A stretch of DNA of 64,000 bases, from positions 62,001-126,000 of the forward strand of contig NZ_LR824569.1 in NCBI RefSeq assembly GCF_903969135.1. The letters are read 5' to 3'. Shown in pieces: positions 553 through 52,479 of this stretch. The notes below the pieces were generated by a model that ran no database searches, was not told where the DNA came from, and saw only the letters and a list, made by a program, of their open reading frames with translations. Both the position numbers and the translations under genes were made by a program. This stretch comes from Chryseobacterium sp. JV274. Lineage in GTDB: Bacteria > Bacteroidota > Bacteroidia > Flavobacteriales > Weeksellaceae. Every line of letters starts with the position of its first letter. The first letter of the stretch is position 1.

Positions 553-686
553 AAGAATTGATGAAGGCAAACTTACAAAAAACAAATGTATTTAAGAATC
601 CATTTTGGCTACAGCTTACCGCATTTTGGCAACTTCCGGGTTTATTCTAATGCTGAACTTTGTCCTATAATTTTAAACAAAGAAAA

Positions 687-23834: not shown

Positions 23835-24479
23835 TTAATGATTATACAGCCTAAGAATCTCCACCAATTCGGGTATGGATCGTATTTTCAGTTTCTCAAA
23901 CAGCCTGTTTTTGTAAGTACTGATCGTAGATGAATGGAGATTAAGTTGATTAGAAATTTCTTTGAGAGGAAGACCTTCAGCCAGTTTATTGGCAATTTGC
24001 AATTCGCGGTCTGACAGCGCTTCGAAGGGTGAGTTTTTTGTAGTGCCATTTATCGATTCTAAAAACATCGCTTCTTTTACGTGGTCACTCGCAAACCGGC
24101 CAGTATTGAGCATTGCCGTCAAAGCAGTTTCAACTACTGCATTGGAGCTTTGTTTACTTAAATAGCCACCGGCACCCATCTTTAGATAGCGCATTGCATA
24201 CACCTCTTCATCTTGAGAAGAAAATATAAGAATTTTTAAGTTGGGTTGGTGCATTTTTATGTAGTCAATGGCTTCCTGAACAGAACCATTAGGCATATTG
24301 ACGTCCATGATAGCCAGATCCAGTTCTTCCTTCAGAATGACTTTGTACAGTGATTTAAAATCCTCTACTTCAATGATTGTAGCATCAGGCCAGAGGCGTT
24401 GTATGGTTTGTATTAAACCCATCCGGACGATACCGTGATCGTCTGCTACAATAATACGAACGTTTACTTTTAAACCCAT
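23835..24479 (-). CDS. NarL/LuxR-type response regulator
   Basis: A 214-residue two-domain regulator. The receiver (residues 8-125) has the acidic pocket 'VADDHG', phospho-acceptor D59 in 'LAIMDVNMP', Ser in 'ILIFSSQDE' and Lys in 'YLSKQSS'. The C-terminal LuxR helix-turn-helix is 'LSDRELQIANKLAEGLPLKEISNQLNLHSSTISTYKNRLFEKL'. It overlaps the kinase gene by one base, so the pair is cotranscribed. It is the only DNA-binding output domain among the signalling proteins around the pilus-like locus, and so the best candidate for the TGTAGT sites at the pilin promoters. Confidence 0.92.
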   Translation of the reverse strand: MGLKVNVRIIVADDHGIVRMGLIQTIQRLWPDATIIEVEDFKSLYKVILKEELDLAIMDVNMPNGSVQEAIDYIKMHQPNLKILIFSSQDEEVYAMRYLKMGAGGYLSKQSSNAVVETALTAMLNTGRFASDHVKEAMFLESINGTTKNSPFEALSDRELQIANKLAEGLPLKEISNQLNLHSSTISTYKNRLFEKLKIRSIPELVEILRLYNH

Positions 24480-25213
24480 TATTCTATAAATTTACGTACA
24501 AAGAGGGAAACAGTGGTGCCTTTATTTTCAGCGGAAGTGATTTGAATGTTTCCATGCATCAAGGATACAAAATTTTTCACAATTTTCAAACTTAATCCAA
24601 CTCCTTTCTCACCAGCAGTACCAAGGAATAGGGGGTTACCATAAGTGAAGATTTCAGATAAATATTTTTCATCCATTCCCGTTCCGAAGTCGCTCACAGA
24701 AATTATCACCTGACGATCATCCGTAACTTCCTGCAAGTGAATGTCATTCCCGGAAAAAGAGTATTTCACTGCATTATTGAGAATTTTGTCTAAAACATAT
24801 TGCAGCAACAAACGATCGGTTGTAACAAATGCATTGGGATCTCCTTTAAAGTGAAATTTAATATTTTTTTCTTTTAATTTAAGTGCATATTTTTCTTCAA
24901 AATGGTGAAAAAGATCCATCATCATGATTTTCTCAGGTTTAATCTTAAATTCCCCATATTGCGTTTTTAACCAAGAGGTGCTGTCCTGAATGGTTTGCAG
25001 ATTCTTTTGGGCATCGCATTTTAACTGCGGCAACAACTTAAAAAAATCTTCCTCACTTATAGTCTTTTCTTCTACCGCTTCTATAAGCCACAGAAAATTT
25101 CCAAACATTTCCTTTGAATCGTGAGATAATATCGAGATCAGTCCGTTTTTAAAACTGATTTCATTTTCCAGTTTTTCAATTTTTAATTGTAGTTCGTTGC
25201 TAAGGTCATTCAT
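24479..25213 (-). CDS. Histidine kinase without sensor domain
   Basis: A 244-residue soluble kinase. An N-terminal coiled coil leads into an H-box-like 'ISILSHDSKEMFGNFLWLIE' (His near 30), then the ATP-binding domain with N-box 'KILNNAVKYS', G1 'DFGTGM' and G2 'GEKGVGLSLKIV'. There is no membrane segment or recognisable input domain, so it must sense through a partner or receive a signal in the cytoplasm. The cognate regulator overlaps it downstream; a hybrid kinase gene lies 61 bases upstream on the same strand. Confidence 0.87.
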   Translation of the reverse strand: MNDLSNELQLKIEKLENEISFKNGLISILSHDSKEMFGNFLWLIEAVEEKTISEEDFFKLLPQLKCDAQKNLQTIQDSTSWLKTQYGEFKIKPEKIMMMDLFHHFEEKYALKLKEKNIKFHFKGDPNAFVTTDRLLLQYVLDKILNNAVKYSFSGNDIHLQEVTDDRQVIISVSDFGTGMDEKYLSEIFTYGNPLFLGTAGEKGVGLSLKIVKNFVSLMHGNIQITSAENKGTTVSLFVRKFIE

Positions 25214-25274: not shown

Positions 25275-27272
25275 TTATTCTTTTTCGATTTCCGTACCAA
25301 ACCATTTTTGAATCATATCAGACAGGGTTTGCTTTAATAAGGGTTTGGTTAAAAAATCTGACATTCCGGCTTGCAGACATTTTTCTTTATCACCAGGCAG
25401 ACTCCCTGCTGTTACTGCAATAATAGGTATTTCGATGTTTTTTTCCAAGGCTCTTATTTCTTTGGTTGCTTCAATACCATTGAGATGAGGCATCTGAATA
25501 TCCATTAAAATAAGATCAGGACTCTCTTTTTGGTGTTTTTCAACCGCTTCAGTACCATCTTTTGCCTCGATGATTAAAGCTTGAGGAATAATCTCCTTTA
25601 AATAAGTTTTGATAAGAAGTAAATTAATAGGATTATCCTCAGCAATTAAAATTTTTATTTCGCGCATGCTCACTTCATTTGCTGCATTTTTTATTTGATC
25701 CGGTTTTTTCTTTTCAGAACTCTTTAAGGTGGATAAAATCTGGTACATCTGTTTCATACGAATTGGTTTTACAAGCCGATTTTCTATTTCTAATTCGTCA
25801 CATGCAGCCTGCAAATTAGTATCATCGGACGAGCTGTACAAAACAACATACGGCACTACATGGTTGGCGTCGGGAATAATATTTTTCATTTTTCTTATGG
25901 TTTCAATGCCATCCATAATCGGCATATGATAATCCATAATAATCACATCGAATTTGGACTTGTTCATAATCAATAGCAAAGCCTTCAACCCGCTATCGCA
26001 TTCCGTTACTTCGATATTTTTTCGTTCCAGCATCCTTTTCAGGATTTTCCGATTGTTTTCATTATCGTCCACAATCAAAACTCTCTTAATATCACTTAAG
26101 TTTAAATCATATTCCTCTTCCTCAGTGTCGAACAGAATATCAAAGAAAAAGTCGCTGCCCTTTCCCTGATCGCTTTCGACTTGTAATATACTGTCGGCAA
26201 GTGCCAAGATTTGGTTCGAAATGGTGAGTCCCATGCCAGTCCCTCCATATCTTTTAGTAATACTGCCATCTCCCTGTGAAAAAGGGTTGAAAATTTCAGC
26301 CTGTTTTTCGCTGCTGATTCCAATGCCTGTATCGCGAACTCCAAATCGGATTCGTTTTTTTCCTTCTCCTAAATCATCTAAAACTTTGACATATGAAACA
26401 ATCTCGCCTTCCTCGGTAAATTTTAAAGCGTTGCTCAAAAGGTTGACAAAAACCTGTTTTAAGCGCATCTCATCAGTCCATATATATCTAGGTATGGTGT
26501 CATCAATATCGATGAGCATTTCTACTTGCTTTTTAGTATTACTGTACGCAACAATATTGAAGGCTTCTGAAACCAGTTCTTCAATCTCTACTTTGTCGAG
26601 ATTTAGCTTAAGTTTTTGCTTTTCTAATTTTGAGAAGTCCAAAATATCGTTGATGATGCTGTATAAGGATACACCGGATTGGTTGATGATTTCCAGGTAT
26701 TGTCTTTGCATTTCGTCCAGATTGGTTTCCATAAGGAGCTCTGTAAAACCGATAATACCATTTAATGGGGTTCTTATCTCATGACTCATATTGGCCACAA
26801 ACTCTGATTTTAAAACATAGGCTTTTTCTGCCAGTTCTCTTTCTTTATCCAAATGACATTTTGCCGCTTGGTTCAATATCTTGTTGACCAACTCTTCCTC
26901 TGCTTTATCTAAATTTTTCTCTTCCCTGTCAAATAAATTTAAATGAGTGATCAGATTGTCCTCACGACCGGGGATGGGATAACTTCTATGAAATTTAAAT
27001 TCCGAGTTCTTAGACTCATAAACCGAAGTCTGGTCATTCAAAAGAAAGTGAGGATTCTGGGGATAGACCTGATTGGGGGATGCATCACTGGAAGCGAGAA
27101 CGTAAACTTGCCCTTCCGAGGTAATGCTCATGGTGCAAAGCTCCATGTTGGTCATCTTGGCCGCCGCGAATACTAAGAAATCAAAAACATCGGTATGTTT
27201 TTTTTCGAATGCACTTAATTTATCAATATAGTGCTGATTCCGCGATTGATCATTGCCATTAATGTGGTCCAT
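25275..27272 (-). CDS. Hybrid histidine kinase with two receiver domains
   Basis: A 665-residue cytoplasmic hybrid kinase. The N-terminal 130 residues resemble a GAF-type sensor. A coiled linker leads to the dimerisation domain with phospho-His H164 ('[16 protein letters not shown]'), then the ATPase domain ('[13 protein letters not shown]', 'DTGIGIS', '[10 protein letters not shown]'). Two receivers follow: '[10 protein letters not shown]' with '[13 protein letters not shown]', and '[10 protein letters not shown]' with '[13 protein letters not shown]'. It has no DNA-binding or HPt domain, so phosphate must pass to another protein. It lies 27 bases after the adhesin-like gene, on the same strand, and may share its transcript. 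Confidence 0.92.
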
Positions 27273-27299: not shown

Positions 27300-28733
27300 T
27301 TAAATTGCCGTGAAGCTATAATAAACATTGATAGAGTAGGTGGTATTTTCCTTACCTACCAAACTTTGGGCACCCGCAGGTGATATGGTATATCTTACAT
27401 TCAGTCCCCGGTCCAAAACCGGTGCTCCATTAAACAGTATTTTTTGAGGAGTTTTGGATAAGGGAGCATTTACAGAACTTCCGTCTATACCAATTTGTAA
27501 TATGTTGGAATTGATGCTGGTCTGCAGACCGCCTTTCTTGAAATAATTTTCGTCCGATTTTACATAGAGCTCAAAATTTTCATTATTGGACAGCATAATT
27601 TGGTTTGGAATCATTTGTGACTGACCATCGGTGTATTGGGCAGCGGTATTAAAATTGAAATTTACATTGCGTCCGGAACTGGGGATGGTGATCTCCGACA
27701 GAGGAAGCACCTTTAACTGAACAGCCGTATTTTGCAAACTGTTAATTGAGTTATCTGTACTTCTGGCATTGAAGTTCAATTCAAACGTATAAGTTCCAGC
27801 TTCAAAAAAAAGGTTTTTAAAATCATCCGAAGAAACATAAAGCTCTGGAATAAAGCTGTTTCTGTTTCCCGCCACAACACTGAAATTAGCTGCGGAAAAA
27901 TTCTGAAAATCGGCAGATAAGGCTTTGGTCGTGAGTGCAGATCCATTACTACCCAATTTAATGCTTGCTATATTTCTGGTTCCTGGAACACCTTTAGAAG
28001 AAGTGAACTGAATGTTTGTAGAAGCAGCTTTCGCCCAAAAATTAAAGTCAACCGTATGTGCGATTTCCGTATTCCCCAAATCCCACACCCGCGTGCTAGT
28101 ATTGCGGTAGTCATTCAAAGAAGATATTTCTATGTATTTTGTTAAAGAATTTGTGACCCAACGCATAGATGGAGGAATGACTAAAATTGTTTTAAAATTA
28201 CGTGGTGTAAAGTCATTATAATTCTGAGTGATATCCATGGAGTAATTCCCGGCCCGGAAGGCATTAGCAGTAAATTGTGAGGCAGGAATTTTAAATGTAA
28301 AATTGATATTTCCCCGGTTGAATCCTCCCCCGATACTTAGTGATGGCGGTTCAAACCATTTTATAGCGCTTGTACTGAACGACTGAAAACCTGGTAAATA
28401 ACCTGAAAGTCCAGTATATGGCAGCTGCCCGCCCATACTTTCTAACTGCCATAGAAGAGTGGAACTGGGCAAAGTAAATGAGGAAGAAGAGTGAGTAAAA
28501 GTTGGTCCTGAAACAGAGGTAAATGTAGGAGCTGTTGGGAGTAGCCCCAAAAAGGCATAATCCCAGTTTGTTCTGTTAGCGTTCGTCATTACTCTTGTAG
28601 GTACTGAGGTAAATTCGGTCCTGTTAAAAATATTATTATCAGGAACCGACAGATACACATCCTGAGCTTTCGTGGCTGCAAACCCACAGAACATGGTAAA
28701 AATTCCTATTAGAAAAGCCCTCATCTTTTTCAT
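27300..28733 (-). CDS. Adhesin-like secreted protein with C-terminal pilin-like domain
   Basis: A 477-residue protein with signal peptide (to about residue 23, 'ATKA'). Residues 24-335 form a large beta-rich region rich in Ser, Thr, Asn and aromatics. The last 130 residues parallel the small pilins of the same locus: 'VNFNFNTAAQYTDGQ' against their 'VDFNYATAADYNSDQ', 'NENFELYVKSDENYF' against 'TKNFNVKVKAGGANF', and 'LNVRYTISPA...TYSINVYYSFTAI' against 'LNLDYTIPAA...TYTQTVTYTATAL'. A binding domain joined to a pilin domain is how tip adhesins of chaperone-usher pili are built. The ligand is unknown. It is the last gene of the assembly block, ten bases after the usher-like gene. Confidence 0.7.
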   Translation of the reverse strand: MKKMRAFLIGIFTMFCGFAATKAQDVYLSVPDNNIFNRTEFTSVPTRVMTNANRTNWDYAFLGLLPTAPTFTSVSGPTFTHSSSSFTLPSSTLLWQLESMGGQLPYTGLSGYLPGFQSFSTSAIKWFEPPSLSIGGGFNRGNINFTFKIPASQFTANAFRAGNYSMDITQNYNDFTPRNFKTILVIPPSMRWVTNSLTKYIEISSLNDYRNTSTRVWDLGNTEIAHTVDFNFWAKAASTNIQFTSSKGVPGTRNIASIKLGSNGSALTTKALSADFQNFSAANFSVVAGNRNSFIPELYVSSDDFKNLFFEAGTYTFELNFNARSTDNSINSLQNTAVQLKVLPLSEITIPSSGRNVNFNFNTAAQYTDGQSQMIPNQIMLSNNENFELYVKSDENYFKKGGLQTSINSNILQIGIDGSSVNAPLSKTPQKILFNGAPVLDRGLNVRYTISPAGAQSLVGKENTTYSINVYYSFTAI

Positions 28734-28743
28734 ACTTTTAAAT

Positions 28744-31554
28744 TTAAAACTTTTTCACCTTAATAGTGGTGTCTTTCTTCTTATATTCAAAAACTACGGT
28801 TTTTGAATACCCTTCTTTTGTCACCTGAATAGTTTGGGTGGGTTGTGTATAGCTGTATTTGTCATTTTCAATATAGAGACTGTATTTTCCATCTTTCAGG
28901 AAAAACTCAAACTCATTTTTTTGGTTAACCACGGCAGTATAGATCACCCCATCTTCACTTTTTGCATATACCACTATTCCGGTTACATCTGTTTCCAAAA
29001 CATCGTAGGCTTGCTTGATCTCCGTTAATTTCCCACTTACCCTGATGTTTTTTACCAAGCTCACTTTGCGGTTAATATTATTATGTACCATAATGACAGG
29101 ATCCATCATCAATCGGGCACCTGCACTTTCGTTCACCTTCAGTGTATAAGTACCTTCAGGCACATTCTGAAAAACTACTTTTCCATTCTTATCCGTCATC
29201 GCTACATAATTGTCCAGTTTTACAATTTCATTAGCAAGTACCGATTCGCCGGACTCCAGAAGCCCATTGAAATTTTTATCTTCAAAGAACTGGAACGTCA
29301 CTTTATGATTTCCAAGAGTCGTAGCTGTGGCAAAATATTTTTTAATCCCCACTCTAAACTGGTAATAACTGCCACTGGTTGCATATTCAGCCGTAGATTT
29401 ATAACCGGAAAGATTAAAATAACCTGTGGTAGACCATGAAGACGAAATCTTATATTCCAGATTACCGGTGATATTGCTGTTTAAATTTTTATAAAGTTCC
29501 GAATAGAAGGCTCCGGCTGAAAAAGATCCAGTCAGATTATGATTAAGCATCTGGAAATTATACGAGGCATATACATTATAGTTGGCAAAATTACGGCTTA
29601 CATCATAATAAGAATTTAAATCAAAGACACTTGTTGCGTTCCATTGGGCTGTTCCGTTGAGGGAGAATGATTTATATCTGTAAGATAAAGTTGTTTTCAA
29701 ACTGTTGAACCAGTCCGGTTTATTGTTCTCTTTTGAATAAGAATATTCCGCCGTCAGGTTCAATCCGTGGGCACCTAATGTAGTGCTGATATTGGCTTCC
29801 AGCCGGTATGAAAAAAGTTCCTGCGATGTGTAAAAATTAGCTGTTTTTTGATTTTCAACCTTTGGAGAAAGTAAAAAATTCCACTTCTTTAAAGAAAACT
29901 GATAACCTAATCCCAAAGCTTCTGTACTGTTGAAATAATAACGTAAATTAGAGGTATTCCCAGGTTGGGTTGATGCACCCTGGAAACTCAGGAACTCGGG
30001 CTCTATCTGCGAATTCTGATATTGTATAAAAGCGCGCTGAGAAGCAGAAAATTGGCGGCCAATCCTCTGATTTGAGAAAAAAGATCCCCGTTTGATCCCT
30101 GCATAACTTTTGGTAGCAAAGGAATTGACAGATTGTATATCCCAGTTCCCTATTTTCCCATCGTAATTGGCTCCCATTGAAGCGCCTGCGTTTTCATCTT
30201 TGTTCAAAAGGCCTTTTTCGTGGCTCAGACCAACCTCCGTGCGGATTGTGTTTTTATCATTAATTAAAAATGACGTTACCGCGTTCGCTACCTGTGTATC
30301 TATGTTAAGGCGCGGATCATGATCGAATATATAAGACACTTTCCCATTGAAAGATTTAGCATTCCCAAAAGCATATTTTGCGCCCATAATGGTAGATCCT
30401 TCTGTTTGTTGGAAATAAGTACCGTACAGATTATAATTATTTTCCAGCGCAAGAATTTCAATCTGATTATTTTTACCAAATTTGGTAGAAACTTTCCCGC
30501 CTCTTCCGAAAACCGGATAATCATAATCGCTGCTATTAACATTTCCCACCCTTAACACCGTATTTTTTCTCTCCAGTTCCAGCCACGTATCATACAGATT
30601 ATAACGACCGTCTTCAACATAGTAATCTGCACCAATATTGAAGCGCGATTTCAAATTCTCAGTCACCCGAAATGCTGTATTTCCCCTTAATTGAAGATAG
30701 TTGAAACCTGAACTGTTTTCATTATAGCTAATTTCTGCAAAATTACTTCCGCTCACCGCTTCGTTTCCTCTGGCAATTTGTCTGTTGTGCGATAAAATGA
30801 CTAAATAGAGTGTGTTGCTTCCCACGATTTTATTATCAAGCAGGTCTGTGACAATTGCATTAATATTAAATTCCGGATAAAGTGTATTCTGTTTTCTGAC
30901 TGCAATTTTGATTTCAACCGTTTGTTTTTCTAAACCTTCCAGAGATACGGTTTGTTGTTTTGGCATCATTTCCAAACCATCAGGAATGGATTGCAAATCA
31001 ATCTTAACGGTTCTTTTACTATAACCTTGGTTTTCTACTGTCAGCAGAATTGAGGATTGGGGCACAGCAGGGTTAATGAAATTTTCGTAGGTGGCGGTAT
31101 AAATTGCGATGTTTTTGTTCTCGTCTTTAGCAACGAAGAATGAGGCGCTTTCAGTTTTGGTAACCGTTGGGCTGGTGTACGAAACCTGGAATTTGATTTC
31201 ATTGGATCTCAGTTTCATAAAATCCACGTTGGCGATCAGTTTCACAGGAAGATTTTTAGACTGACCTGCACCTAAGGTAAATTCATTTTTGGGATAGAAA
31301 AGCAATCCCGGATATTTTTCATTAGGTATGATATTCTGAATGATAATCTCTTCAGAACTTTTATTCTCAACGACCAGGAAATTAGTAAAAGTAGAACCTT
31401 TCTCAACAGCTACAGCTACACTGTCATTTTCAAAATGGATTTGTATATCCTTCTTTTCCTGCGCAGAGGCCAAAGAAAAGTGCAGAAGAACAAATACAAA
31501 AAATAAGATTGTTCTTCTTAGGACTGATATCGATATTCCATTCTGTAGTTTCAA
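28744..31554 (-). CDS. Usher-like outer-membrane protein
   Basis: A 936-residue secreted protein. After the signal peptide (to 'SLASA'), residues 32-250 form two Ig-like domains ('FLVVENKSSEEIIIQNIIP', 'SILLTVENQGYSKRTVKIDL'). Residues 265-730 are a long run of amphipathic strands with aromatic ends, as in an outer-membrane barrel, including 'LRVGNVNSSDYDYPVFGRGG'. Residues 745-920 hold small beta domains: 'FFEDKNFNGLLESGESV', 'TDKNGKVVFQNVPEGTYTLKV' and 'FFLKDGKYSLYIENDKYSY'. The order of periplasmic domains, barrel and C-terminal beta domains matches the general plan of a fimbrial usher, and the gene lies between chaperone and adhesin. I see no close sequence match to FimD, so the usher role is inference. 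Confidence 0.6.
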   Translation of the reverse strand: MKLQNGISISVLRRTILFFVFVLLHFSLASAQEKKDIQIHFENDSVAVAVEKGSTFTNFLVVENKSSEEIIIQNIIPNEKYPGLLFYPKNEFTLGAGQSKNLPVKLIANVDFMKLRSNEIKFQVSYTSPTVTKTESASFFVAKDENKNIAIYTATYENFINPAVPQSSILLTVENQGYSKRTVKIDLQSIPDGLEMMPKQQTVSLEGLEKQTVEIKIAVRKQNTLYPEFNINAIVTDLLDNKIVGSNTLYLVILSHNRQIARGNEAVSGSNFAEISYNENSSGFNYLQLRGNTAFRVTENLKSRFNIGADYYVEDGRYNLYDTWLELERKNTVLRVGNVNSSDYDYPVFGRGGKVSTKFGKNNQIEILALENNYNLYGTYFQQTEGSTIMGAKYAFGNAKSFNGKVSYIFDHDPRLNIDTQVANAVTSFLINDKNTIRTEVGLSHEKGLLNKDENAGASMGANYDGKIGNWDIQSVNSFATKSYAGIKRGSFFSNQRIGRQFSASQRAFIQYQNSQIEPEFLSFQGASTQPGNTSNLRYYFNSTEALGLGYQFSLKKWNFLLSPKVENQKTANFYTSQELFSYRLEANISTTLGAHGLNLTAEYSYSKENNKPDWFNSLKTTLSYRYKSFSLNGTAQWNATSVFDLNSYYDVSRNFANYNVYASYNFQMLNHNLTGSFSAGAFYSELYKNLNSNITGNLEYKISSSWSTTGYFNLSGYKSTAEYATSGSYYQFRVGIKKYFATATTLGNHKVTFQFFEDKNFNGLLESGESVLANEIVKLDNYVAMTDKNGKVVFQNVPEGTYTLKVNESAGARLMMDPVIMVHNNINRKVSLVKNIRVSGKLTEIKQAYDVLETDVTGIVVYAKSEDGVIYTAVVNQKNEFEFFLKDGKYSLYIENDKYSYTQPTQTIQVTKEGYSKTVVFEYKKKDTTIKVKKF

Positions 31555-31563
31555 GACTTAATT

Positions 31564-32364
31564 TTAAAATTTAAAGTTTTTTTCGCCTACGCGTAAATCA
31601 TTGGATTCTGCCATTTTGATAATAACCACGCCAAGGAAGTTTCCTGAAATTTTCTCTGGTAAAGAAAACTGAACAACCTGATTGGTATCCGGAAGCATGG
31701 AGATGGAAATTGCTGGCAATTTTATTTCCTTACCACTGTCTGTGTTGGTGAGTTCAAACTCAACGGTGGCATCATTGATGGTGTTTCCATCATTATGGAT
31801 ACTTACTGCTACTTTTCTGTTCGCTGCATTCTCATTACTCACCTCTGAAATATTGGTAATATCCAGACTTTTTACATGGTTTCCCGGTGGAGTATAAAAG
31901 ATGTGAAGTCCCACTTCAAATAAGGTGATAATACCAATACCATTCTGAACACGTGCCTTATCTGCCTGCTGAGGAAGCTGGGTGAAAAACAGCATACTGT
32001 TCGTAACAGCAGACTGTGATGCATTTGCCGGGATCTGCATGGTCACTACAATCTCCTTTGTGCTTTTCGCAGGAACTGTTACCGCGTTTTCTAAGGTGGA
32101 TATCCAGGAGGCATTGGAAATTTTTGAACTGCCTGCTTCAAGATAAACCTTATTTCCGTCTTCTTCTCTAACCCAATCTTTGTAGTTGAGATTAAAAACA
32201 TAATCTTTATCCGAGCTATTTTGAAGCGTGACTGTCTTTGTTACTTTTTCTCCTGGATTACCTGTGAAAAACAAGCGTGTAGGCGACATAGAGATACTTT
32301 GTGCCAGAAGTGAAGAAGACCCTGTGAAGATAAAGAAAATGAAAAGGTGAATAAACTTGTGCAT
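31564..32364 (-). CDS. PapD-like periplasmic pilus chaperone
   Basis: A 266-residue protein with signal peptide (to 'LLAQS'). The first Ig-like domain starts 'ISMSPTRLFFTGNPGEKVTKTVTLQNSSDKDYVFNLNYKDW', which parallels the start of PapD/FimC chaperones, including the Arg that anchors a subunit's C-terminus. The G1-strand region 'IGIITLFEVGLHIFYTPPG' matches the alternating hydrophobic strand and 'FYRP' end of PapD; the usual Lys there appears to be His. A second Ig-like domain follows. It should cap pilin subunits in the periplasm. It lies between the pilin array and the usher-like gene. Confidence 0.75.
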   Translation of the reverse strand: MHKFIHLFIFFIFTGSSSLLAQSISMSPTRLFFTGNPGEKVTKTVTLQNSSDKDYVFNLNYKDWVREEDGNKVYLEAGSSKISNASWISTLENAVTVPAKSTKEIVVTMQIPANASQSAVTNSMLFFTQLPQQADKARVQNGIGIITLFEVGLHIFYTPPGNHVKSLDITNISEVSNENAANRKVAVSIHNDGNTINDATVEFELTNTDSGKEIKLPAISISMLPDTNQVVQFSLPEKISGNFLGVVIIKMAESNDLRVGEKNFKF

Positions 32365-32384
32365 GGTGTAAATAGTTTAATAAT

Positions 32385-32427
32385 AAAGATTCCCAAAACT
32401 ACTGAAAACATCGCAAAAGGAATCTTT
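32385..32427 (-). terminator. Hairpin between pilin and chaperone genes
   Basis: AAAGATTCC (32385-32393) pairs perfectly with GGAATCTTT (32419-32427) in the 80-bp gap between the first pilin gene and the chaperone. It has no strong T-run, so it may act as a partial terminator or RNA-end stabiliser that keeps pilin output above that of the assembly genes. Confidence 0.45.
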
Positions 32428-32444
32428 ACAAACTAAAATTTTTA

Positions 32445-32990
32445 TTATAAAGCGGTCGCAGTATAAGTTACCGTTTGTGTATAAGTTCCGGCTGGTTTAC
32501 CTAAAATATCAGGAGATGAGGATTTTGCTGCTGGAATGGTGTAGTCCAGATTCAGTGTTAATGCACTTCCAAGAGGAGCATTTGATACTAAGGTTTGATC
32601 CGTTGCAGATAAAACAACGGTGCTTTTTGTTCCGCCCATGGTTCCGGCAGCTGTAGCAGCTTTGATAGTCAGAACATTTACAGGGATCAGGTTGGTTCCA
32701 TTCATGAAATTAGCACCTCCTGCTTTTACTTTAACATTAAAGTTCTTCGTTGAAGTAACTTTTAAGGAGTTGGCTTTAGTAATTGTTTGATCAGAGTTAT
32801 AGTCTGCTGCAGTAGCATAGTTAAAGTCAACCGTATTACCAATTGCTGTACTTCCCGCGTCGATGGAGATTACATCGTTCAGGGTAATGTTTACCGTTGT
32901 GGTTGCTGTAGTATTTTGAGCTTGAACATTGTTAGTTCCTAATATGATTGCTCCAAAAGTTAAGGCTGAGATTACGATTAGTTTTTTCAT
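32445..32990 (-). CDS. Pilin-like subunit (copy 1)
   Basis: 181 residues from ATG 32990; the longer frame to 33026 runs through the promoter leader. Signal peptide to 'NNVQA', then a Thr-rich N-terminal strand 'TTATTTVNITLNDVISI' that could serve as a donor strand. An Ig-like body without Cys ends 'GTYTQTVTYTATAL'. This end and the overall size resemble spore-coat-U/DUF4402-type pilins of archaic chaperone-usher pili. It is nearly identical to copies 3 and 4. It has its own promoter and shared operator upstream; the chaperone gene follows after a hairpin. Confidence 0.7.
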   Translation of the reverse strand: MKKLIVISALTFGAIILGTNNVQAQNTTATTTVNITLNDVISIDAGSTAIGNTVDFNYATAADYNSDQTITKANSLKVTSTKNFNVKVKAGGANFMNGTNLIPVNVLTIKAATAAGTMGGTKSTVVLSATDQTLVSNAPLGSALTLNLDYTIPAAKSSSPDILGKPAGTYTQTVTYTATAL

Positions 32991-33023
32991 GATAGTAATA
33001 TTTAATTGTTCTTTTGTATACTG

Positions 33024-33092
33024 CAAATTTATAGCAGCGATAAAAGTTTCTTTGTAGTGGAAAAAGGAAGTTCATGTAGTAAAATCACTACA
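33024..33092 (-). promoter_or_regulatory. Pilin promoter with TGTAGT operator (copy 1)
   Basis: On the minus strand TAAATTTG (33031-33024) matches the -7 element. Upstream lie sites written on the plus strand as TGTAGT at 33053-33058 and 33075-33080 (22 bp apart) and ACTACA at 33087-33092. They sit where an activator would bind. The -33 region lacks a TTTG consensus. The same block precedes pilin copies 3 and 4. Confidence 0.6.
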
Positions 33093-33112
33093 GGATTATT
33101 CATTTTGTTTAA

Positions 33113-33149
33113 ATAAAAAAGCCCTCAATACCTGGAAAGTGCTGAGGGC
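33113..33149 (-). terminator. Terminator after pilin copy 2
   Basis: Reading on the minus strand, GCCCTCA (33149-33143) pairs with TGAGGGC (33127-33121), followed by a T-run. It isolates copy 2 from copy 1. Confidence 0.75.
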
Positions 33150-33169
33150 ATATATATTGATGTGTTTTT

Positions 33170-33715
33170 TTATAAAGTAGTCGCAGTATATGTTACTGTT
33201 TGGGTATAAGTTCCAGCGGGTTTACCTAAAATATCAGAAGATGAGGATTTTGCTGCTGGAATGATGTAATCCAGATTCAGTGTTAATGCACTTCCGAGAG
33301 GAGCATTGGATACTAAGGTTCTTTCTCCTGGAGATAAAACCACATCGTTTTTGGTTCCGCCCATATTTCCGGGAGCTTCTGCAACCTTGATTGTCAAAAC
33401 ATCTACAGGGATTGAGTTTGAACCATTGACGAAATGCGGTCCTCCCGCTTTTACCTTTACATTAAAATTCTTCGTTGAGGTAACTTTTAAGGAGTTGACT
33501 TTGGTAATCGTCTGATCAGAGTTATAGTCTGCTGCAGTAACATAGTTAAAAGCAACTATACCACCAATTGCTGTACTTCCTGCATCTATAGAGATCACAT
33601 CGTTCAGGGTAATATTTACCGTTGTGGTTGCGGCTGTATTTTGAGCTTGAACATTATTAGTTCCAAATATAACTACTCCAAAAGTTAAGGCTGTGATGGC
33701 GATTTGTTTTGTCAT
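33170..33715 (-). CDS. Pilin-like subunit (copy 2, diverged)
   Basis: A 181-residue paralogue of the same length and plan as copy 1, with signal peptide and the ending 'GTYTQTVTYTATTL'. It differs mainly in the middle: 'GPHFVNGSNSIPVDVLTIKVAEAPGNMGG' and 'SPGERTL' replace the shared sequence. It lies only 58 bases after copy 3. A -7 element TAGATTFG-type match (TAGATTTG, 33767-33760) is present but the TGTAGT sites are not, so it may be read through from copy 3 or expressed at a lower level. A terminator follows it. Confidence 0.7.
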   Translation of the reverse strand: MTKQIAITALTFGVVIFGTNNVQAQNTAATTTVNITLNDVISIDAGSTAIGGIVAFNYVTAADYNSDQTITKVNSLKVTSTKNFNVKVKAGGPHFVNGSNSIPVDVLTIKVAEAPGNMGGTKNDVVLSPGERTLVSNAPLGSALTLNLDYIIPAAKSSSSDILGKPAGTYTQTVTYTATTL

Positions 33716-33773
33716 GGCAGTAAGATTTAATTATTATTCTTGTTCTCTTTTGAACATTACAAATCTACAGCTG

Positions 33774-34319
33774 CTACAAAGCAGTTGCTGTATACGTTAC
33801 TGTTTGAGTATAAGTTCCGGCTGGTTTACCTAAAATATCAGAAGATGAAGATTTTGCCGCTGGAATAGTGTAGTCCAGGTTCAATGTTAATGCACTTCCA
33901 AGAGGAGCATTTGATACTAAGGTTTGATCCGTTGCAGATAAAACAACAGCGCTTTTTGTTCCGCCCATGGTTCCGGCAGCTGTAGCCGCTTTGATAGTCA
34001 GAACATTTACAGGGATCAGGTTGGTTCCATTCATGAAATTAGCACCTCCTGCTTTTACTTTAACATTAAAGTTCTTCGTTGAAGTAACTTTTAAGGAGTT
34101 GGCTTTAGTAATTGTTTGATCAAAGTTATAGTCTGCTGCAGTAGCATAGTTAAAGTCAACCGTATTACCAATTGCTGTACTTCCCGCGTCGATGGAGATT
34201 ACATCGTTCAGGGTAATGTTTACCGTTGTGGTTGCTGTAGTATTTTGAGCTTGAACATTGTTAGTTCCTAATATGATTGCTCCAAAAGTTAAGGCTGAGA
34301 TTACGATTAGTTTTTTCAT
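33774..34319 (-). CDS. Pilin-like subunit (copy 3)
   Basis: A 181-residue near-copy of copies 1 and 4; I see about three differences from copy 1 (Phe for Ser in 'AADYNFDQ', Ala for Thr in 'GTKSAVV', Ser for Pro in 'SSSSDIL'). Signal peptide, Thr-rich N-terminal strand and 'TVTYTATAL' end are all intact. It has the full promoter and operator block upstream. The identity also extends over silent positions and the upstream region, which points to recent duplication or gene conversion. Confidence 0.7.
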   Translation of the reverse strand: MKKLIVISALTFGAIILGTNNVQAQNTTATTTVNITLNDVISIDAGSTAIGNTVDFNYATAADYNFDQTITKANSLKVTSTKNFNVKVKAGGANFMNGTNLIPVNVLTIKAATAAGTMGGTKSAVVLSATDQTLVSNAPLGSALTLNLDYTIPAAKSSSSDILGKPAGTYTQTVTYTATAL

Positions 34320-34369
34320 GATAGTAATATTTAATTGTTATTTTTATTTAATTGTTCTTTTGTATACTG

Positions 34370-34438
34370 CAAATTTATAGCAGCGATAAAAGTTTCTTTG
34401 TAGTGGAAAAAGGAAGTTCATGTAGTAAAATCACTACA
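34370..34438 (-). promoter_or_regulatory. Pilin promoter with TGTAGT operator (copy 3)
   Basis: TAAATTTG (34377-34370, minus strand) with TGTAGT at 34399-34404 and 34421-34426 and ACTACA at 34433-34438. Every distance equals that in copies 1 and 4. Confidence 0.6.
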
Positions 34439-34517
34439 GGATTACTCATTGGTTTAAATAGAAAATCCCTTAATACTTTCTAAGTGTTGAGGGCGTATCT
34501 AATTCCTGTTATTTCTA

Positions 34518-34550
34518 TTATAAAGCTGTCGTGATATAAATTACCGTTGC
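34518..34550 (-). pseudogene. Remnant of a sixth pilin gene (3' end only)
   Basis: Read on the minus strand this encodes 'ATVIYITTAL' and a stop, matching the pilin ending 'QTVTYTATAL'. Upstream the frame meets a stop at once, and no more pilin sequence is found. A degraded copy of the GCCCTCA-type terminator follows at about 34464-34496. The intervening 34551-34711 shows nothing recognisable. Confidence 0.5.
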
Positions 34551-34711
34551 TTATAATTTTTCTTTAGATTTTCACAAAATTTACTGAATGTTTGGTGTGA
34601 TGTATTAATTAGATTTAAATGTCCAAAAGCATAGATTCTACCTTACAGATGACAGATACTTATTCCCGGATTTTGAATTTTATCTATATCGGTACAATAC
34701 ATACAAAATCA

Positions 34712-34732
34712 AAGGCCTCCTGAGGAAGCCTT
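34712..34732 (-). terminator. Terminator after pilin copy 4
   Basis: On the minus strand AAGGCTTCC pairs with GGAGGCCTT around TCA with one wobble pair, 40 bases after the stop of copy 4. Confidence 0.55.
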
Positions 34733-34771
34733 CGAAACACCAAATCACAAAATATTAATATGAAAATTTAT

Positions 34772-35317
34772 TTATAAAGCTGTTGCAGTATAAGTTACCG
34801 TTTGTGTATAAGTTCCTGCTGGTTTACCTAAAATATCAGAAGAAGATGATTTTGCCGCTGGAATGGTGTAGTCCAGATTCAGTGTTAATGCACTTCCAAG
34901 AGGAGCATTTGATACTAAAGTTTGATCCGTTGCAGATAAAACAACAGCGCTTTTTGTTCCGCCCATTGTTCCGGCAGCTGTAGCTGCTTTGATAGTCAAA
35001 ACATTTACAGGGATCAGGTTGGTTCCATTCATAAAATTAGCACCTCCTGCTTTTACTTTAACATTAAAGTTCTTCGTTGAAGTAACTTTTAAAGAGTTGG
35101 CTTTAGTAATTGTTTGATCAGAGTTATAGTCTGCTGCAGTAACATAGTTGAAGTCAACCGTATTACCAATTGCAGTACTTCCCGCGTCAATGGAGATTAC
35201 ATCGTTAAGGGTAATATTTACCGTTGTGGTTGCTGTAGTATTTTGAGCTTGAACATTGTTAGTTCCTAATATGATTGCTCCAAAAGTTAAGGCTGAGATT
35301 ACGATTAGTTTTTTCAT
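34772..35317 (-). CDS. Pilin-like subunit (copy 4)
   Basis: A 181-residue near-copy of copies 1 and 3, differing mainly by Val for Ala in 'NYVTAADYN'. Same signal peptide, donor-strand-like N-terminus and C-terminal strand. The full operator and promoter block lies upstream and a terminator downstream, so it is a self-contained unit. Confidence 0.7.
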   Translation of the reverse strand: MKKLIVISALTFGAIILGTNNVQAQNTTATTTVNITLNDVISIDAGSTAIGNTVDFNYVTAADYNSDQTITKANSLKVTSTKNFNVKVKAGGANFMNGTNLIPVNVLTIKAATAAGTMGGTKSAVVLSATDQTLVSNAPLGSALTLNLDYTIPAAKSSSSDILGKPAGTYTQTVTYTATAL

Positions 35318-35369
35318 GATAGTAATATTTAAATTTTATTTTTATTTAATTGTTCTCTTTTGTATACTG

Positions 35370-35438
35370 CAAATTTACAGTGGTCATAAAAGTTTCTTTG
35401 TAGTGGAAAATGGAAGTTCATGTAGTAAAATCACTACA
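35370..35438 (-). promoter_or_regulatory. Pilin promoter with TGTAGT operator (copy 4)
   Basis: TAAATTTG (35377-35370, minus strand) with TGTAGT at 35399-35404 and 35421-35426 and ACTACA at 35433-35438, the same geometry as in copies 1 and 3. Confidence 0.6.
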
Positions 35439-35460
35439 GGATTACACATTTTGCTTAAAT

Positions 35461-35501
35461 AAAAAGCCCTCAACACTTCTAAGTGTTGAGGGCTTTTTAT
35501 T
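35461..35501. terminator. Strong terminator after pilin copy 5
   Basis: A perfect 13-bp stem (35466-35478 with 35481-35493) and a two-base loop, with A-run on one side and T-run on the other. It ends the transcript of copy 5 and insulates the operator of copy 4. Confidence 0.8.
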
Positions 35502-35518
35502 TAAAAATTGATATTTAC

Positions 35519-36061
35519 TTACAATGCAGTGGCAGTATAAGTTATTTTTTGTGTGTAAGTTCCTTGTGGTTTCCCCAGAAGTACTTTGGATGCATTTTCC
35601 GACGAAATAGAGTAGGCAATATTTAAAGACTGTTTAGTACCTAAACTTGCATTACTCACCAGTACCTGATCAGTTGTAGATAAAGTGACCTCATTCAGAG
35701 TCCCCACCAGACTTCCACCTGGTATTGCCTTTACCTGTAATATATCTACAGGAATTACGTTTGCACCACTTACAAAGTGTGTACCTTCAGATTTTACTTT
35801 TACATCAAAATTTTTGGAGGAAATAATGACTAAACTATTGGGAACGGTCACATTTTTTGATGAGTTATAGTCTTTTGTGCTCCCATAATTAAAATCTACA
35901 GCACCTTCTGACGCATCAGTGCCAATGTCCATTGCAATAACGTCTGCTAAAATAATATTTACGGATGTACTAACCTTCTCAGAATTTTGTGCAAGAACCC
36001 GGTTGGTTCCTATAGTGATTGCTCCCAGGGATAGGGCAGTGATAAAGATTTGCTTTTTCAT
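35519..36061 (-). CDS. Pilin-like subunit (copy 5, most diverged)
   Basis: 180 residues from ATG 36061; a longer frame to 36142 lacks a signal peptide at its start. Signal peptide to 'NRVLAQ', then 'VSTSVNIILADVIAMDIG', 'VDFNYGSTKDYNSSKNVTV' and the end 'GTYTQKITYTATAL' align with the other copies over the whole length. It is clearly related but shares perhaps half its residues. It lacks the TGTAGT block. It may be a minor or initiating subunit; that is inference from its divergence and its place at the head of the array. Confidence 0.68.
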   Translation of the reverse strand: MKKQIFITALSLGAITIGTNRVLAQNSEKVSTSVNIILADVIAMDIGTDASEGAVDFNYGSTKDYNSSKNVTVPNSLVIISSKNFDVKVKSEGTHFVSGANVIPVDILQVKAIPGGSLVGTLNEVTLSTTDQVLVSNASLGTKQSLNIAYSISSENASKVLLGKPQGTYTQKITYTATAL

Positions 36062-36496: not shown

Positions 36497-39460
36497 ATGC
36501 CGAAAAAAATTATAAGAAATCTTCAGATAGGAGTAGTGATTTCTTTGATGCTTCTGATTGCTAGTTCCATAGCATCTTATATAAGCATACATAAGCAGAT
36601 GGAGAATAGGGAAGACCTCTTGAAAAGTAAGGAATCTATAAGCTTAGCAAAAGATATCTTAAATACTCTTTTAAATGCTGAGACGGGCAATCGGGGATAT
36701 CAGCTTACCGGCCTGGAAAATTTTCTTGAACCTTTCGATAAAAGTAGGAATGAATATCCGCTGCTTGTTTCTCACAAAGATAGACTTAATCTTAGAGATA
36801 AAGATCAGATTAATATTCTAAATGAACTGCTACATACTTCAGAAATCTTAATGAAAGAATATGTTTTGCTTATTGAGAATCGTAAAAAGGGAATATTAAT
36901 AAGTCCGGAAGAACTTGTACAAAACAAGGAGGCTATGGACAAATGCCGCATGCTCGTTCAGAAATTTGTAAAACTTGAGGAAGTTCAACTTGCCATAAAA
37001 AATGAAGAGCTGAATAAGTCTTCGAAGTGGACTGTTTTATTTATCATCTTTTCTGCGGTTGCAGCCATTGGTGTAACCGTTTTTGTTTATATACAATTAA
37101 AATCTGATCTTATCCGGCGTGGTAAGTTAGAAAGCGATCTGTCTTACACTAAGGAAATGCTTGAAGAAACAGGCTCAGTAGCCCAGGTGGGAGGTTGGGA
37201 AGCCAATATGAAGACAGGAAAGCTGTTCTGGTCTCAAAGTACAAGAGAAATTCACAAAATAGAAAATAATTTCCAGCCTACTTTTGAAAATGCCTTTGAA
37301 TTTTACAAAGGAAAAAGCAGGGAGAGAATAAAATATCTTTTTAACAGGGTAATACAACAAGGAATTCCTTTTGATGAGGAACTTCAGCTTTTACGTAATG
37401 ATGGCGCTACGATTTGGGTAAGAGTAAAAGGTATTCCCGAATTTGAAGATGATACCTGTAAAAGGGTTTTCGGAATCATTCAGGACATTGATGCCTTCAA
37501 AAAAATGTTTTTAGAGGTTACCCGGAAGGAGGCCATAATGCAGTCTTTTGCCACTGATGTTCCTGTTCCTTTGGCCATGTTTGATAAAGATCTTAACTAT
37601 GTTGCTGTAAGCAGCAGATGGAGAGAGGAATTTAGTATGAATAATGTAGATCTTATCGGTAATAATCTTTTCACGATATCACCTAATATTCCCAAAGAAC
37701 GAAAAGATATCTATGACAATGCACTTTTGGGAAAAACGTACATCAACAGTGACTTTATGCTAAAGGTGGAAGGAAAAGAAGAAATTCAGCATTATGACCT
37801 TAAAGTCGGTCCTTGGTATCTTACAAAAGATGAAGTAGGGGGAGTGATTATTTCCATACAGAATATTACAAATGCTGTAAAGATAAATGAAGAACTGAAA
37901 AATGCCAAGGAAACGGCAGATATAGCCAGCAAAGCAAAATCCGAATTTCTGGCCAATATGAGTCATGAGATCAGGACTCCTTTAAATGGAGTTATTGGTT
38001 TTTCAGACCTTCTCCTCACAACACCACTGAATGAAACACAGATGCAATATCTGAATTACATCAATGAGTCAGGGGAAAACCTGCTTAGCATTATCAATGA
38101 TATATTGGATTTTTCTAAAATAGAATCCGGAAAAATGGAGCTTTTGATTGAGAAAACTGATGTTTATGATATGTTAAGCCAGGTCATAAATGTTATTATT
38201 TATCAATCCCAGAAAAAAAATATCGAACTTCTTCTCAATATTGAGCCAGGTCTTCCAAAGATACTTTTTTTGGATGAAGCAAGGTTAAAACAGATTTTGA
38301 TCAATCTTCTGGGAAATGCTGTGAAATTTACAGAAAAGGGAGAGATAGAGCTAAAAGTAGAGAAATTACGCATGGATGATAGTACTATTGTTTTGCGCTT
38401 CTCGGTAAGAGATACGGGGATCGGCATCCCTGTTGAGAAACAGAAATACATTTTTAATGCCTTTACTCAGGAAAACAGTTCCATTAGTAAACGATATGGT
38501 GGAACGGGTCTAGGACTTACTATCTCAAATAATATCCTGGGATATATGGGAAGCCATTTGTCGCTGAGCAGCGTAAAGGAAAAGGGTTCTGTATTTTTCT
38601 TTGACATTGAGATTCCTTACGAGATCTCTCAATTGAGAGAGGAGGATGAAATAACTATTAGAACGGCCTTAGTGGTTGATGATAATGAAACCAATAGGAT
38701 CATTCTTGACCACATGCTTACCTATAAAAATATCAAGTCTACCTTGGCTTCTAATGGGATGGAGGCGTTGGAAATCCTGTTGAAAGGAGAGCGGTTCGAT
38801 GTGATCCTGATGGATTATCATATGCCTGTTATGTCAGGATTGGAAACAATAGATAAAATAACAGGGCTGTTCAATCAGCGAAAAGAGACTTCTCCATTTA
38901 TAGTACTTTCTTCTTCTTCTGAAGAACTGGGCATACTTAATTCAGTTAGAAAAATAGAAAATGCACATTTACTGTTGAAGCCTATCAAATCACATGAACT
39001 ATACAAAACCTTAAAAAAGGTAGACCGAAGTTATGCAGTAGAAATTAGTAAGGATCAGTCTGAGAAAGGTTTGCAGTTATTTGCCCCAGAATTAGAAGTG
39101 CTTTTGGTTGATGATAACGTAGTGAATATGGTCCTGAATAATAGAATAATGAAGTCTCTTGCACCCAGTATACATCTAACGGAAGCCGTCAATGGGCTGC
39201 AGGCTTTGGAAGAATGCAGGAAAAAGCATTTTTCCATTATCTTGATGGATGTACAGATGCCAATCATGAGTGGTATTGAGGCAACACGAAATATAAGAAT
39301 GCTGCCGGGATATGAAAATATACCTATCATAGGCGTTACAGCTGGAAATGTGCTGGGTGAAAAAGAAAAGTGTCTGGAAGCCGGAATGAATGATTTCCTT
39401 CCCAAGCCTATCAGGCAGAAAGACCTTGTTGAAGTACTCAAAAAATATATTAATGTTTAG
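36497..39460 (+). CDS. Membrane hybrid histidine kinase (CHASE3-PAS-kinase-two receivers)
   Basis: A 987-residue hybrid kinase. TM1 lies at about residues 10-30, then a periplasmic CHASE3-like helical domain ('ILNTLLNAETGNRGYQLTG'), TM2 at about 178-200, and two PAS-type domains. The dimerisation domain has phospho-His H490 ('[16 protein letters not shown]') and is followed by the ATPase ('NLLGNAVKFTEKG', 'DTGIGIP', 'GGTGLGLTIS'). The two receivers have 'VVDDNETN', 'ILMDYHMPVMSG' and 'LVDDNVVN', 'ILMDVQMPIMSG'. From the kinase core onwards it resembles the hybrid kinase at 25275-27272. It lacks DNA-binding and HPt domains. It is divergent from the pilin array and probably senses an envelope signal for it. 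Confidence 0.92.
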   Translation: MPKKIIRNLQIGVVISLMLLIASSIASYISIHKQMENREDLLKSKESISLAKDILNTLLNAETGNRGYQLTGLENFLEPFDKSRNEYPLLVSHKDRLNLRDKDQINILNELLHTSEILMKEYVLLIENRKKGILISPEELVQNKEAMDKCRMLVQKFVKLEEVQLAIKNEELNKSSKWTVLFIIFSAVAAIGVTVFVYIQLKSDLIRRGKLESDLSYTKEMLEETGSVAQVGGWEANMKTGKLFWSQSTREIHKIENNFQPTFENAFEFYKGKSRERIKYLFNRVIQQGIPFDEELQLLRNDGATIWVRVKGIPEFEDDTCKRVFGIIQDIDAFKKMFLEVTRKEAIMQSFATDVPVPLAMFDKDLNYVAVSSRWREEFSMNNVDLIGNNLFTISPNIPKERKDIYDNALLGKTYINSDFMLKVEGKEEIQHYDLKVGPWYLTKDEVGGVIISIQNITNAVKINEELKNAKETADIASKAKSEFLANMSHEIRTPLNGVIGFSDLLLTTPLNETQMQYLNYINESGENLLSIINDILDFSKIESGKMELLIEKTDVYDMLSQVINVIIYQSQKKNIELLLNIEPGLPKILFLDEARLKQILINLLGNAVKFTEKGEIELKVEKLRMDDSTIVLRFSVRDTGIGIPVEKQKYIFNAFTQENSSISKRYGGTGLGLTISNNILGYMGSHLSLSSVKEKGSVFFFDIEIPYEISQLREEDEITIRTALVVDDNETNRIILDHMLTYKNIKSTLASNGMEALEILLKGERFDVILMDYHMPVMSGLETIDKITGLFNQRKETSPFIVLSSSSEELGILNSVRKIENAHLLLKPIKSHELYKTLKKVDRSYAVEISKDQSEKGLQLFAPELEVLLVDDNVVNMVLNNRIMKSLAPSIHLTEAVNGLQALEECRKKHFSIILMDVQMPIMSGIEATRNIRMLPGYENIPIIGVTAGNVLGEKEKCLEAGMNDFLPKPIRQKDLVEVLKKYINV

Positions 39461-51748: not shown

Positions 51749-52429
51749 CTACGATGATAAACTACTTTTTGAATATTCATAATCCACAAATAACCTGTTA
51801 TCTACAGATCTTACCCCTGGAGTTTTCCATGCAATACGGCCGGCTTCTTCTTTTTGATGCCATGAATTTACTGTTCCTGTTAAAATCACTGTAGTGCCGG
51901 ATACTTGAATGTGTATATCATTATTATAAAGTGCCCAGGTCATGTTCATTGCGTGCTCAATATCTTTTTGTTTAATATCATCCATTATGTCTGATATGAT
52001 TTTTATATGATTGATTACCCCTTTTACACCTGAAAGATACCGGATTGCATTTTGAGTAATTTCCCGTTGATAATCCCATTGTAATTCACCTTCCAAAGTC
52101 ACCTGACCATTTTCCACAATCACTTTGATTTTGTTCTCTGGAATCAATGCATTGGATTTAAAAGTTTTTAAAATCTCTGCAGCAATTTCATCATCAGTTA
52201 TAGATAAGGAATCTTGAGATTTAACGATAATGTTTTCTACTAAAACTTTTACTCCAACAACTTTTTTTGCAGCATTCTCGGCTTCTATTTTTTTTGCATA
52301 ATGATCAACTACTCCAGTAAGGGCAACGACACCGTCTTTTGCAGTTACCCCTATTTCTGCTGCATGCAATAATGGCTCTCTTTTAATGGCATCCTGAACA
52401 TTTTTTTGTAATTCTGTATTTGTCTTCAT
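51749..52429 (-). CDS. Triple-BON-domain protein (copy 1)
   Basis: 226 residues from ATG 52429; the longer frame starts six codons earlier but the paralogues begin 'MKTNAELQ' at this point. Three BON domains follow one another (about 5-70, 80-145, 155-220), each with the pattern of 'GVVALTGVVDHYAKKIEAENAAKKVVGVKVLVENI'. No signal peptide. BON domains bind membranes or peptidoglycan, and such proteins are often induced by osmotic or other stress. Two paralogues lie at 58539 and 61752. The upstream region has two Crp/Fnr-like boxes and is shared with the divergent P-type ATPase gene. Confidence 0.85.
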   Translation of the reverse strand: MKTNTELQKNVQDAIKREPLLHAAEIGVTAKDGVVALTGVVDHYAKKIEAENAAKKVVGVKVLVENIIVKSQDSLSITDDEIAAEILKTFKSNALIPENKIKVIVENGQVTLEGELQWDYQREITQNAIRYLSGVKGVINHIKIISDIMDDIKQKDIEHAMNMTWALYNNDIHIQVSGTTVILTGTVNSWHQKEEAGRIAWKTPGVRSVDNRLFVDYEYSKSSLSS

Positions 52430-52479
52430 GATAACGTAATTTATCAATCAAAATTCCAGAAACTTTGGAAAAAACACTA

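Follow-up and report, generated by a model that had tools for sequence, protein, structure and literature searches.

Gene content of the locus

A cluster of eight consecutive open reading frames (ORFs) was found on the minus strand of a 64,000-nucleotide stretch of Chryseobacterium sp. JV274 (contig NZ_LR824569.1, positions 62,001 to 126,000), which is called the window hereafter. The order is five pilin-like subunits, a periplasmic chaperone, a usher-like protein of 936 amino acids (aa), referred to as the pore, and a 477-aa terminal subunit (Table 1). All eight ORFs were verified at their positions and in the order put forward in a preliminary description of the window, and the gene set is kept across related loci. 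We consider it likely that the locus encodes a non-covalent pilus which is assembled by donor-strand exchange and has a divergent barrel as its pore. Judged from the predictions, our best reading is a mode of action like that of chaperone-usher pili, yet the plug and the sequence signature of ushers were looked for and not found. Therefore, we do not class it as a member of the chaperone-usher pathway.

The nearest homologues of the locus proteins are Chryseobacterium proteins. Some homologues already bear the automatic database name 'fimbrial biogenesis chaperone', and one homologue is named 'fimbria/pilus outer membrane usher protein'. The five pilins and the 477-aa protein matched no Pfam family at E≤1, and NCBIfam gave nothing over cut-off for the locus proteins. 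For the 936-aa protein FixG_C alone exceeded its Pfam cut-off, whereas the matches to carboxypeptidase-regulatory and SdrD-type domains fell short of it. PF00345, PF00577 and PF06321 had no match in the own genome (a single contig of 5.2 Mb). The same genome contains the system a second time, in a divergent form (L146, C1:964000-976000). Among the matches listed for open-access PMC articles, without preprints or subscription papers, no title or abstract start described this system.

Table 1. Features of the pilus-like locus, its surroundings and its second copy (window positions unless stated otherwise).
Feature	Position	Strand	Remarks
Pilin-like subunit 1	35519..36061	-	ORF; divergent copy, 53-54% identical to the other four
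Pilin-like subunit 2	34772..35317	-	ORF
Pilin-like subunit 3	33774..34319	-	ORF
Pilin-like subunit 4	33170..33715	-	ORF; 82-83% identical to subunits 2, 3 and 5
Pilin-like subunit 5	32445..32990	-	ATG at 32990; longer TTG-started ORF from 33026
Periplasmic chaperone	31564..32364	-	Two putative Ig-like domains (profile alignment); WxLIP_PGBD match; Arg30 conserved
Usher-like outer-membrane protein (pore), 936 aa	28744..31554	-	TTG start; domains from predicted model
Terminal subunit, 477 aa	27300..28733	-	Three tandem pilin-like domains
Pore Ig-like domain 1	residues ~37-145		Predicted model
Pore Ig-like domain 2	residues ~149-253		Predicted model
Pore barrel	residues ~272-740		26 strands (DSSP) without an inserted plug; predicted model
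Pore C-terminal Ig-like domains	residues ~750-845 and ~861-926		Predicted model
Palindrome TGTAGT-N6-ACTACA	35421..35438	.	Upstream of pilin 2
Palindrome TGTAGT-N6-ACTACA	34421..34438	.	Upstream of pilin 3
Palindrome TGTAGT-N6-ACTACA	33075..33092	.	Upstream of pilin 5
Hybrid histidine kinase	25275..27272	-	Immediately downstream of terminal subunit; homologue in 41/65 flavobacterial/saprospirian loci
Histidine kinase	24479..25213	-	Homologue in 57/65 flavobacterial/saprospirian loci
LuxR-type response regulator	23835..24479	-	Homologue in 62/65 flavobacterial/saprospirian loci; candidate palindrome binder
Pilin, second copy	1837-2361 of L146		Own genome
Chaperone, second copy	2446-3249 of L146		Own genome
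Pilin-like subunit, 341 aa, second copy	3242-4267 of L146		Own genome
Pore, second copy	4274-7072 of L146		Own genome

Conservation within Bacteroidota

Related loci were fetched from GTDB genomes by the chaperone alignment (A1) alone. Of 122 matching stretches, 84 encode relatives, and 80 of these were retained. A homologue of the 936-aa protein is present in 80/80 loci, although fragmented or truncated in L019, L054 and L059. The 477-aa homologue and at least one pilin were each found in 77/80 loci. The pilin-less loci (L045, L048, L062) all lie at contig ends; the loci lacking the 477-aa gene are at contig ends (L054, L066) or have broken frames (L019). In L019, from Chryseobacterium sp. 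E1, many frames of the pilin, pore and terminal-subunit genes are broken, possibly due to sequencing errors. In loci with pilins, the number of pilin ORFs or fragments of at least 100 aa ranges from 1 to 8. The 65 flavobacterial and saprospirian loci (L012-L076) keep the order pilin, chaperone, pore and terminal subunit among the genes present. A different order is seen in the 15 loci L077-L091 (Pedobacter, Olivibacter, Sphingobacterium, Mucilaginibacter and Niabella): the terminal subunit comes after the chaperone, and the pore gene is nearby, on the opposite strand in all except L091. The four-part cluster is thus conserved and not a product of chance. The proposed pilus class had been ascribed to a flavobacterium but is wider, with loci also in Sphingobacteriia, Chitinophagia and Saprospiria (the classes of four of the genera in L077-L091 were looked up).

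A sample of 198 genomes of the phylum was used for profile searches. The barrel-only profile matched strongly (E<1e-90) in five of them and weakly in two others, and the chaperone profile matched strongly (E<1e-20) in the same five and less strongly in seven others. Strong barrel and chaperone matches share their copy numbers per genome (2, 2, 2, 1, 2). Since some rows of the barrel profile derive from four of these five genomes, their recovery is no test; the matching copy numbers and the lack of strong matches elsewhere in the sample are.

Remoter relatives of the system occur elsewhere in the phylum, and one group of these, b3, was used for comparison together with a second system of Bacteroidota, b2. 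In b2 loci a chaperone gene and a gene for a pore of about 850-1400 aa accompany pilin genes, and Pfam assigns the pilins of some of these loci to DUF4402. Seven of ten stretches examined (L147-L150, L153-L155) make up the b2 set together with the later addition L189; of the other three, L146 and L151 each carry a second copy of the window system and L152 showed no such cluster. The b3 kind comes from the seven genomes with weaker chaperone matches, five of which have an ORF of about 1000 aa beside the chaperone and two of which do not; one of the five pore ORFs is cut at 464 aa by a contig end.

Pilins and terminal subunit

The preliminary description had proposed pilin-like subunits, and this agrees with our results, which point to domains of the donor-strand type. 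Three alternating positions near the N-terminus (Val45, Ile47 and Leu49 in the numbering of the 193-aa pilin 5 ORF) are hydrophobic in fractions of 0.98, 1.00 and 1.00 of 192 pilins, respectively, and a similar pattern (Val338, Leu340, Val342) occurs in a linker of 79 terminal subunits. This pattern and the model of the terminal subunit agree in suggesting an incomplete immunoglobulin (Ig) fold with an N-terminal donor strand. At the end of the putative signal peptide, with the cleavage place read by eye, stand Ala36 (188/192) and Gln37 (192/192 aligned pilins), and no lipobox cysteine was found at these two columns.

The 477-aa protein, which had been described as a two-domain adhesin, instead has three pilin-like domains. 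All three match the pilin profile, with probabilities of 95.9%, 93.5% and 99.9% after signal peptides were cut; the hhalign probabilities given here and below come from small, uncalibrated alignments. In the predicted model (predicted local distance difference test, pLDDT, 88.7) they follow each other in tandem at residues ~25-188, ~189-345 and ~345-477. Foldseek ranks 1-4 are donor-strand-linked CfaB/CfaE fusions (E 8e-17 to 2e-11). Such a natural three-pilin chain would be a ready-made model of donor-strand topology.

Pilins 2, 3 and 5 (within window 32445-35317) are 98-99% identical to one another. Their upstream regions are near-identical as well and pilin copy number differs between loci, which suggests recombination. 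Other pilin assignments were rejected. None of 38 members of the window family matched DUF4402. A 93% profile match between window and b2 pilins turned out to be a signal-peptide artefact which fell to 0.64% once signal peptides were cut, and the 61% match between b2 and Escherichia coli K-12 pilins likewise fell to 0.38%.

The chaperone and its relatives

The claim of a PapD-like chaperone was borne out, not by PF00345 but by a chain of profiles. At E≤0.01 PF00345 recognised 3/26 chaperones of a mixed alignment, the window protein not among these. With signal peptides cut, the window chaperone family matched the b2 family at 97.6%, and b2 chaperones matched those of K-12 at 81%. A direct comparison of the window family with the K-12 chaperones gave 19% for the mature proteins, down from 78% with signal peptides. 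The b3 chaperones matched the window family at 99.5% over the whole length and 99.4% for the mature part only, and those of K-12 at 0.34% (signal peptides cut). Reversed controls reached at most 0.14% for the window family and 1.2% for b2 versus K-12 with signal peptides on. Judged from these profiles, the chaperone is linked to PapD/FimC as a putative homologue through b2 only. Arg30 is present in 82/83 chaperones and was aligned by eye with the arginine of the FimC stretch TRVIY, and position 154, aligned by eye with the lysine of RIKLYYRP, is His in 69/83 and Gln in 14/83. We take them to be the two residues of FimC (Arg8, Lys112) by which the C-terminus of the pilin is held.

A different function is suggested by the Pfam match of the window chaperone to PF06030 (WxLIP_PGBD; 30.3 bits versus a cut-off of 27.3). 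As a relative of WxLIP, the protein could retain subunits on the surface or in the matrix without an ordered fibre being formed, in a display like that of Gram-positive WxL/WxLIP systems. In line with this, the mixed profile of 26 chaperones matched EfmWxLIP1 at E 8e-10 (positions 36-260 of 269), although the match dropped to E 0.38 with the family's own profile A1. WxLIP proteins have a C-terminal membrane anchor, whereas the window chaperone, read by eye, ends in ...RVGEKNFKF without one. The donor-strand pattern of the pilins also speaks against such a display, as does weak evidence that ties the pilins to the chains of TLP-1/TLP-2 filaments, and we regard it as improbable. Apart from this, the WxLIP matches of the chaperone family (PF06030, EfmWxLIP1) hint at a kinship of WxLIP proteins and pilus chaperones. 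If true, donor-strand chaperones would occur in Gram-positive as well as Gram-negative cells.

The 936-aa usher-like protein

A structure prediction of the 936-aa protein alone had been named beforehand as a check of its usher plan. The AlphaFold2 model (pLDDT 84.3; predicted template modelling score 0.53) shows a predicted barrel of about 26 strands flanked by two N-terminal and two C-terminal Ig-like domains, and Foldseek ranks 1-11 are all FimD/PapC (E 4e-16 to 7e-10). The large barrel, the flanking domains and the best fold likeness of the proposed usher plan were thus recovered; the plug, the barrel homology and the PF00577 match were not. Several points weigh against usher likeness. The longest gap between strands of the modelled barrel is 22 residues (518-539), with no plug inserted, and VIA-align, a second aligner, places MtrB above FimD. 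The barrel sequence matched five K-12 ushers at 1.4% in hhalign, with a TonB control at 0.35%, and hence is without homology to ushers in this comparison. In the 198 phylum genomes PF00577 had no match over cut-off; one match at E 5e-5 belongs to another protein. A plug-less pore would test the purpose of the usher plug.

One could argue that the barrel serves as a receptor or anchor instead of exporting pilins, and that the subunits exit otherwise, such as by type IX secretion, which is common in this group of hosts. However, the five pilins and the terminal subunit lack a type IX sorting domain, since no Pfam family was found on them at E≤1, and all 80 loci with the chaperone also have the barrel gene. 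We therefore consider another exit route very unlikely and retain the 936-aa barrel as the probable pore of the pilus.

The comparison with b2 bears on the question of whether the locus is a true chaperone-usher member, with a barrel too diverged to be recognised and with the second N-terminal Ig domain in place of the plug. Against K-12 ushers the b2 barrel scored 85% over its whole length and 89% in its first half, and its plug alone 71%, with TonB controls below 0.4%; one b2 member also matches PF00577, below cut-off. Since both barrel and plug match, b2 seems in these profile comparisons to be a real, if divergent, chaperone-usher pathway, and our impression is that it is of the archaic kind. 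The window pore shares its C-terminal domains with these ushers (97.5%), and the chaperones are related, in favour of true membership. Against it, the barrel gave no sequence signal (0.2-0.3% versus b2), domains like the shared C-terminal ones are widespread, and the predicted barrel has 26 strands compared to 24 in FimD/PapC. We hold true membership to be quite possible but somewhat short of probable; it overlaps with our preferred reading of a donor-strand pilus with a divergent pore, and the two confidences do not add.

Whole-length matches were rejected as proof of barrel homology. The 97.6% match between window and b2 pores stems from the C-terminal domains alone, as the N-terminal parts gave 0.1-0.2%; it is confined to these domains and barrel homology therefore does not follow from it. 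Similarly, the match to b3 pores (99.15% whole length, E 4e-19) owes its strength to the N-terminal pair (89.6%) together with the C-terminal domains (96.0%), with 9.8% for the barrel alone. The pore profile (A2) matches 66/198 phylum genomes, mostly through the C-terminal domain. The pore ends in KVKKF, and its final Phe is near-invariant (at least 90% of 47 rows) though it lies beyond the barrel and the C-terminal domains.

A further reading concerns the N-terminal Ig pair of the pore, which matches the window chaperone family at 90.9% (E 1e-6). The locus might represent a second, plug-less kind of pilus pore in Bacteroidota, in which a 26-strand barrel is gated by this chaperone-related pair. 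If true, the pore arose from a chaperone-barrel fusion and not from a classical usher. The matches of the pair to b2 chaperones (9%) and b3 chaperones (0.6%) argue against a chaperone origin, and we regard this reading as rather doubtful.

Regulation and neighbouring genes

The full 18-base palindrome TGTAGT-N6-ACTACA occurs at four places in the own genome, three of them at this locus, and a backwards control gave none. No ORF of at least 120 aa begins just downstream of the fourth, and within the window such a site is missing for pilins 1 and 4. Across the 80 loci the core GTAGT-N6-ACTAC was found at 117 sites versus 1.6 expected from base composition. A pilin ORF start follows within 400 bases at 111/117 sites (52 loci), with 96 sites at a distance of 98-111 bases. 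A palindrome near a pilin is present in 52/65 flavobacterial/saprospirian loci versus 0/15 Sphingobacteriia/Chitinophagia loci. In the site rows listed a third ACTACA-like copy and then TAnnTTTG, presumably the Bacteroidota -7 element, were seen by eye after the palindrome.

The LuxR-type regulator and the histidine kinase encoded downstream (Table 1) are both absent from all 15 Sphingobacteriia/Chitinophagia loci, and we infer that the regulator may bind the palindrome. Besides, a divergent hybrid histidine kinase is encoded upstream of the pilins (window 36497-39460); similar kinases occur in 41/65 loci, and their place is not fixed. Farther away, the window holds three related proteins of 220-232 aa with a putative BON domain, read by eye (51749-52447, 58539-59201, 61752-62417), one of which adjoins a P-type ATPase-like ORF (52575-55085).

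Proposed mechanism and comparison with known systems

In the proposed mechanism pilins would enter the periplasm with signal peptides, where the two-domain chaperone may cap each pilin in place of the missing last strand. Capped subunits would then leave through the 936-aa barrel, and the N-terminal strand of each pilin (Val45-Ile47-Leu49) would fill the groove of the preceding subunit. The 477-aa protein would exit first and form the tip, with the linkers between its three domains as predicted built-in donor strands. The pair of histidine kinase and LuxR-type regulator may switch on the pilin promoters through the palindrome.

The classical chaperone-usher systems (FimC/FimD/FimA/FimH, PapC/PapD) likewise combine a chaperone, a flanked large barrel, pilins and a terminal subunit in one cluster; FimD/PapC are the top fold matches of the pore, and the chaperone has its arginine at the place of FimC Arg8. 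The window differs in that its barrel has no plug and no sequence homology, PF00577 and PF00345 do not match, His or Gln stands at the Lys112-like position and the terminal subunit has three pilin-like domains. Of the chaperone-usher-like locus suggested earlier, the gene set, the flanked barrel, a PapD-linked chaperone and pilin domains of the donor-strand type were supported, as opposed to the plug and the two-domain adhesin; barrel homology and the two Pfam families were not supported either.

Similarity to the CFA/I alternative (alpha) fimbriae lies in the fused CfaB trimer (3f85), the first Foldseek rank of the terminal subunit. In the window, however, the three pilin-like domains naturally form one chain, and the PDB search gave no sequence match to CfaB or CfaE. 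With the archaic (sigma) fimbriae (Csu, CupE) the system shares CsuE among the fold matches and the relation of its chaperone to that of b2; it differs in its pilins, which lack DUF4402, and in its barrel, which lacks the plug that b2 and K-12 ushers share. In passages on their distribution, archaic pili are placed in Proteobacteria and Cyanobacteria, with Deinococcota among the further phyla (PMC10104325), and in 'a wide range of phyla' (PMC10104325, PMC9452303); the main text of neither article contains the word Bacteroid-.

The TLP-1/TLP-2 filaments (PDB 9ikj and 9ikk, 16 chains each) gave pilin matches which are each weak alone, and their subunits of 236-237 residues are longer than the window pilins with about 157 mature residues. 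WxLIP of Enterococcus faecium resembles the chaperone in the PF06030 match and the mixed-profile match to EfmWxLIP1, in contrast to the lack of an anchor, the poor match with the family's own profile and the absence of any WxL family in Pfam for the eight proteins. Type V pili (FimA/Mfa) have in common with the proposed pilus that they are a surface fibre of Bacteroidota. Type V pilins are lipoproteins, whereas the window pilins have Ala-Gln without a lipobox cysteine at the signal-peptide end, and PF06321, the sole type V family searched, is absent from the genome. If confirmed, the locus would represent a pilus class besides type V for a major phylum, present in Chryseobacterium, Flavobacterium, Aequorivita, Pedobacter and relatives.
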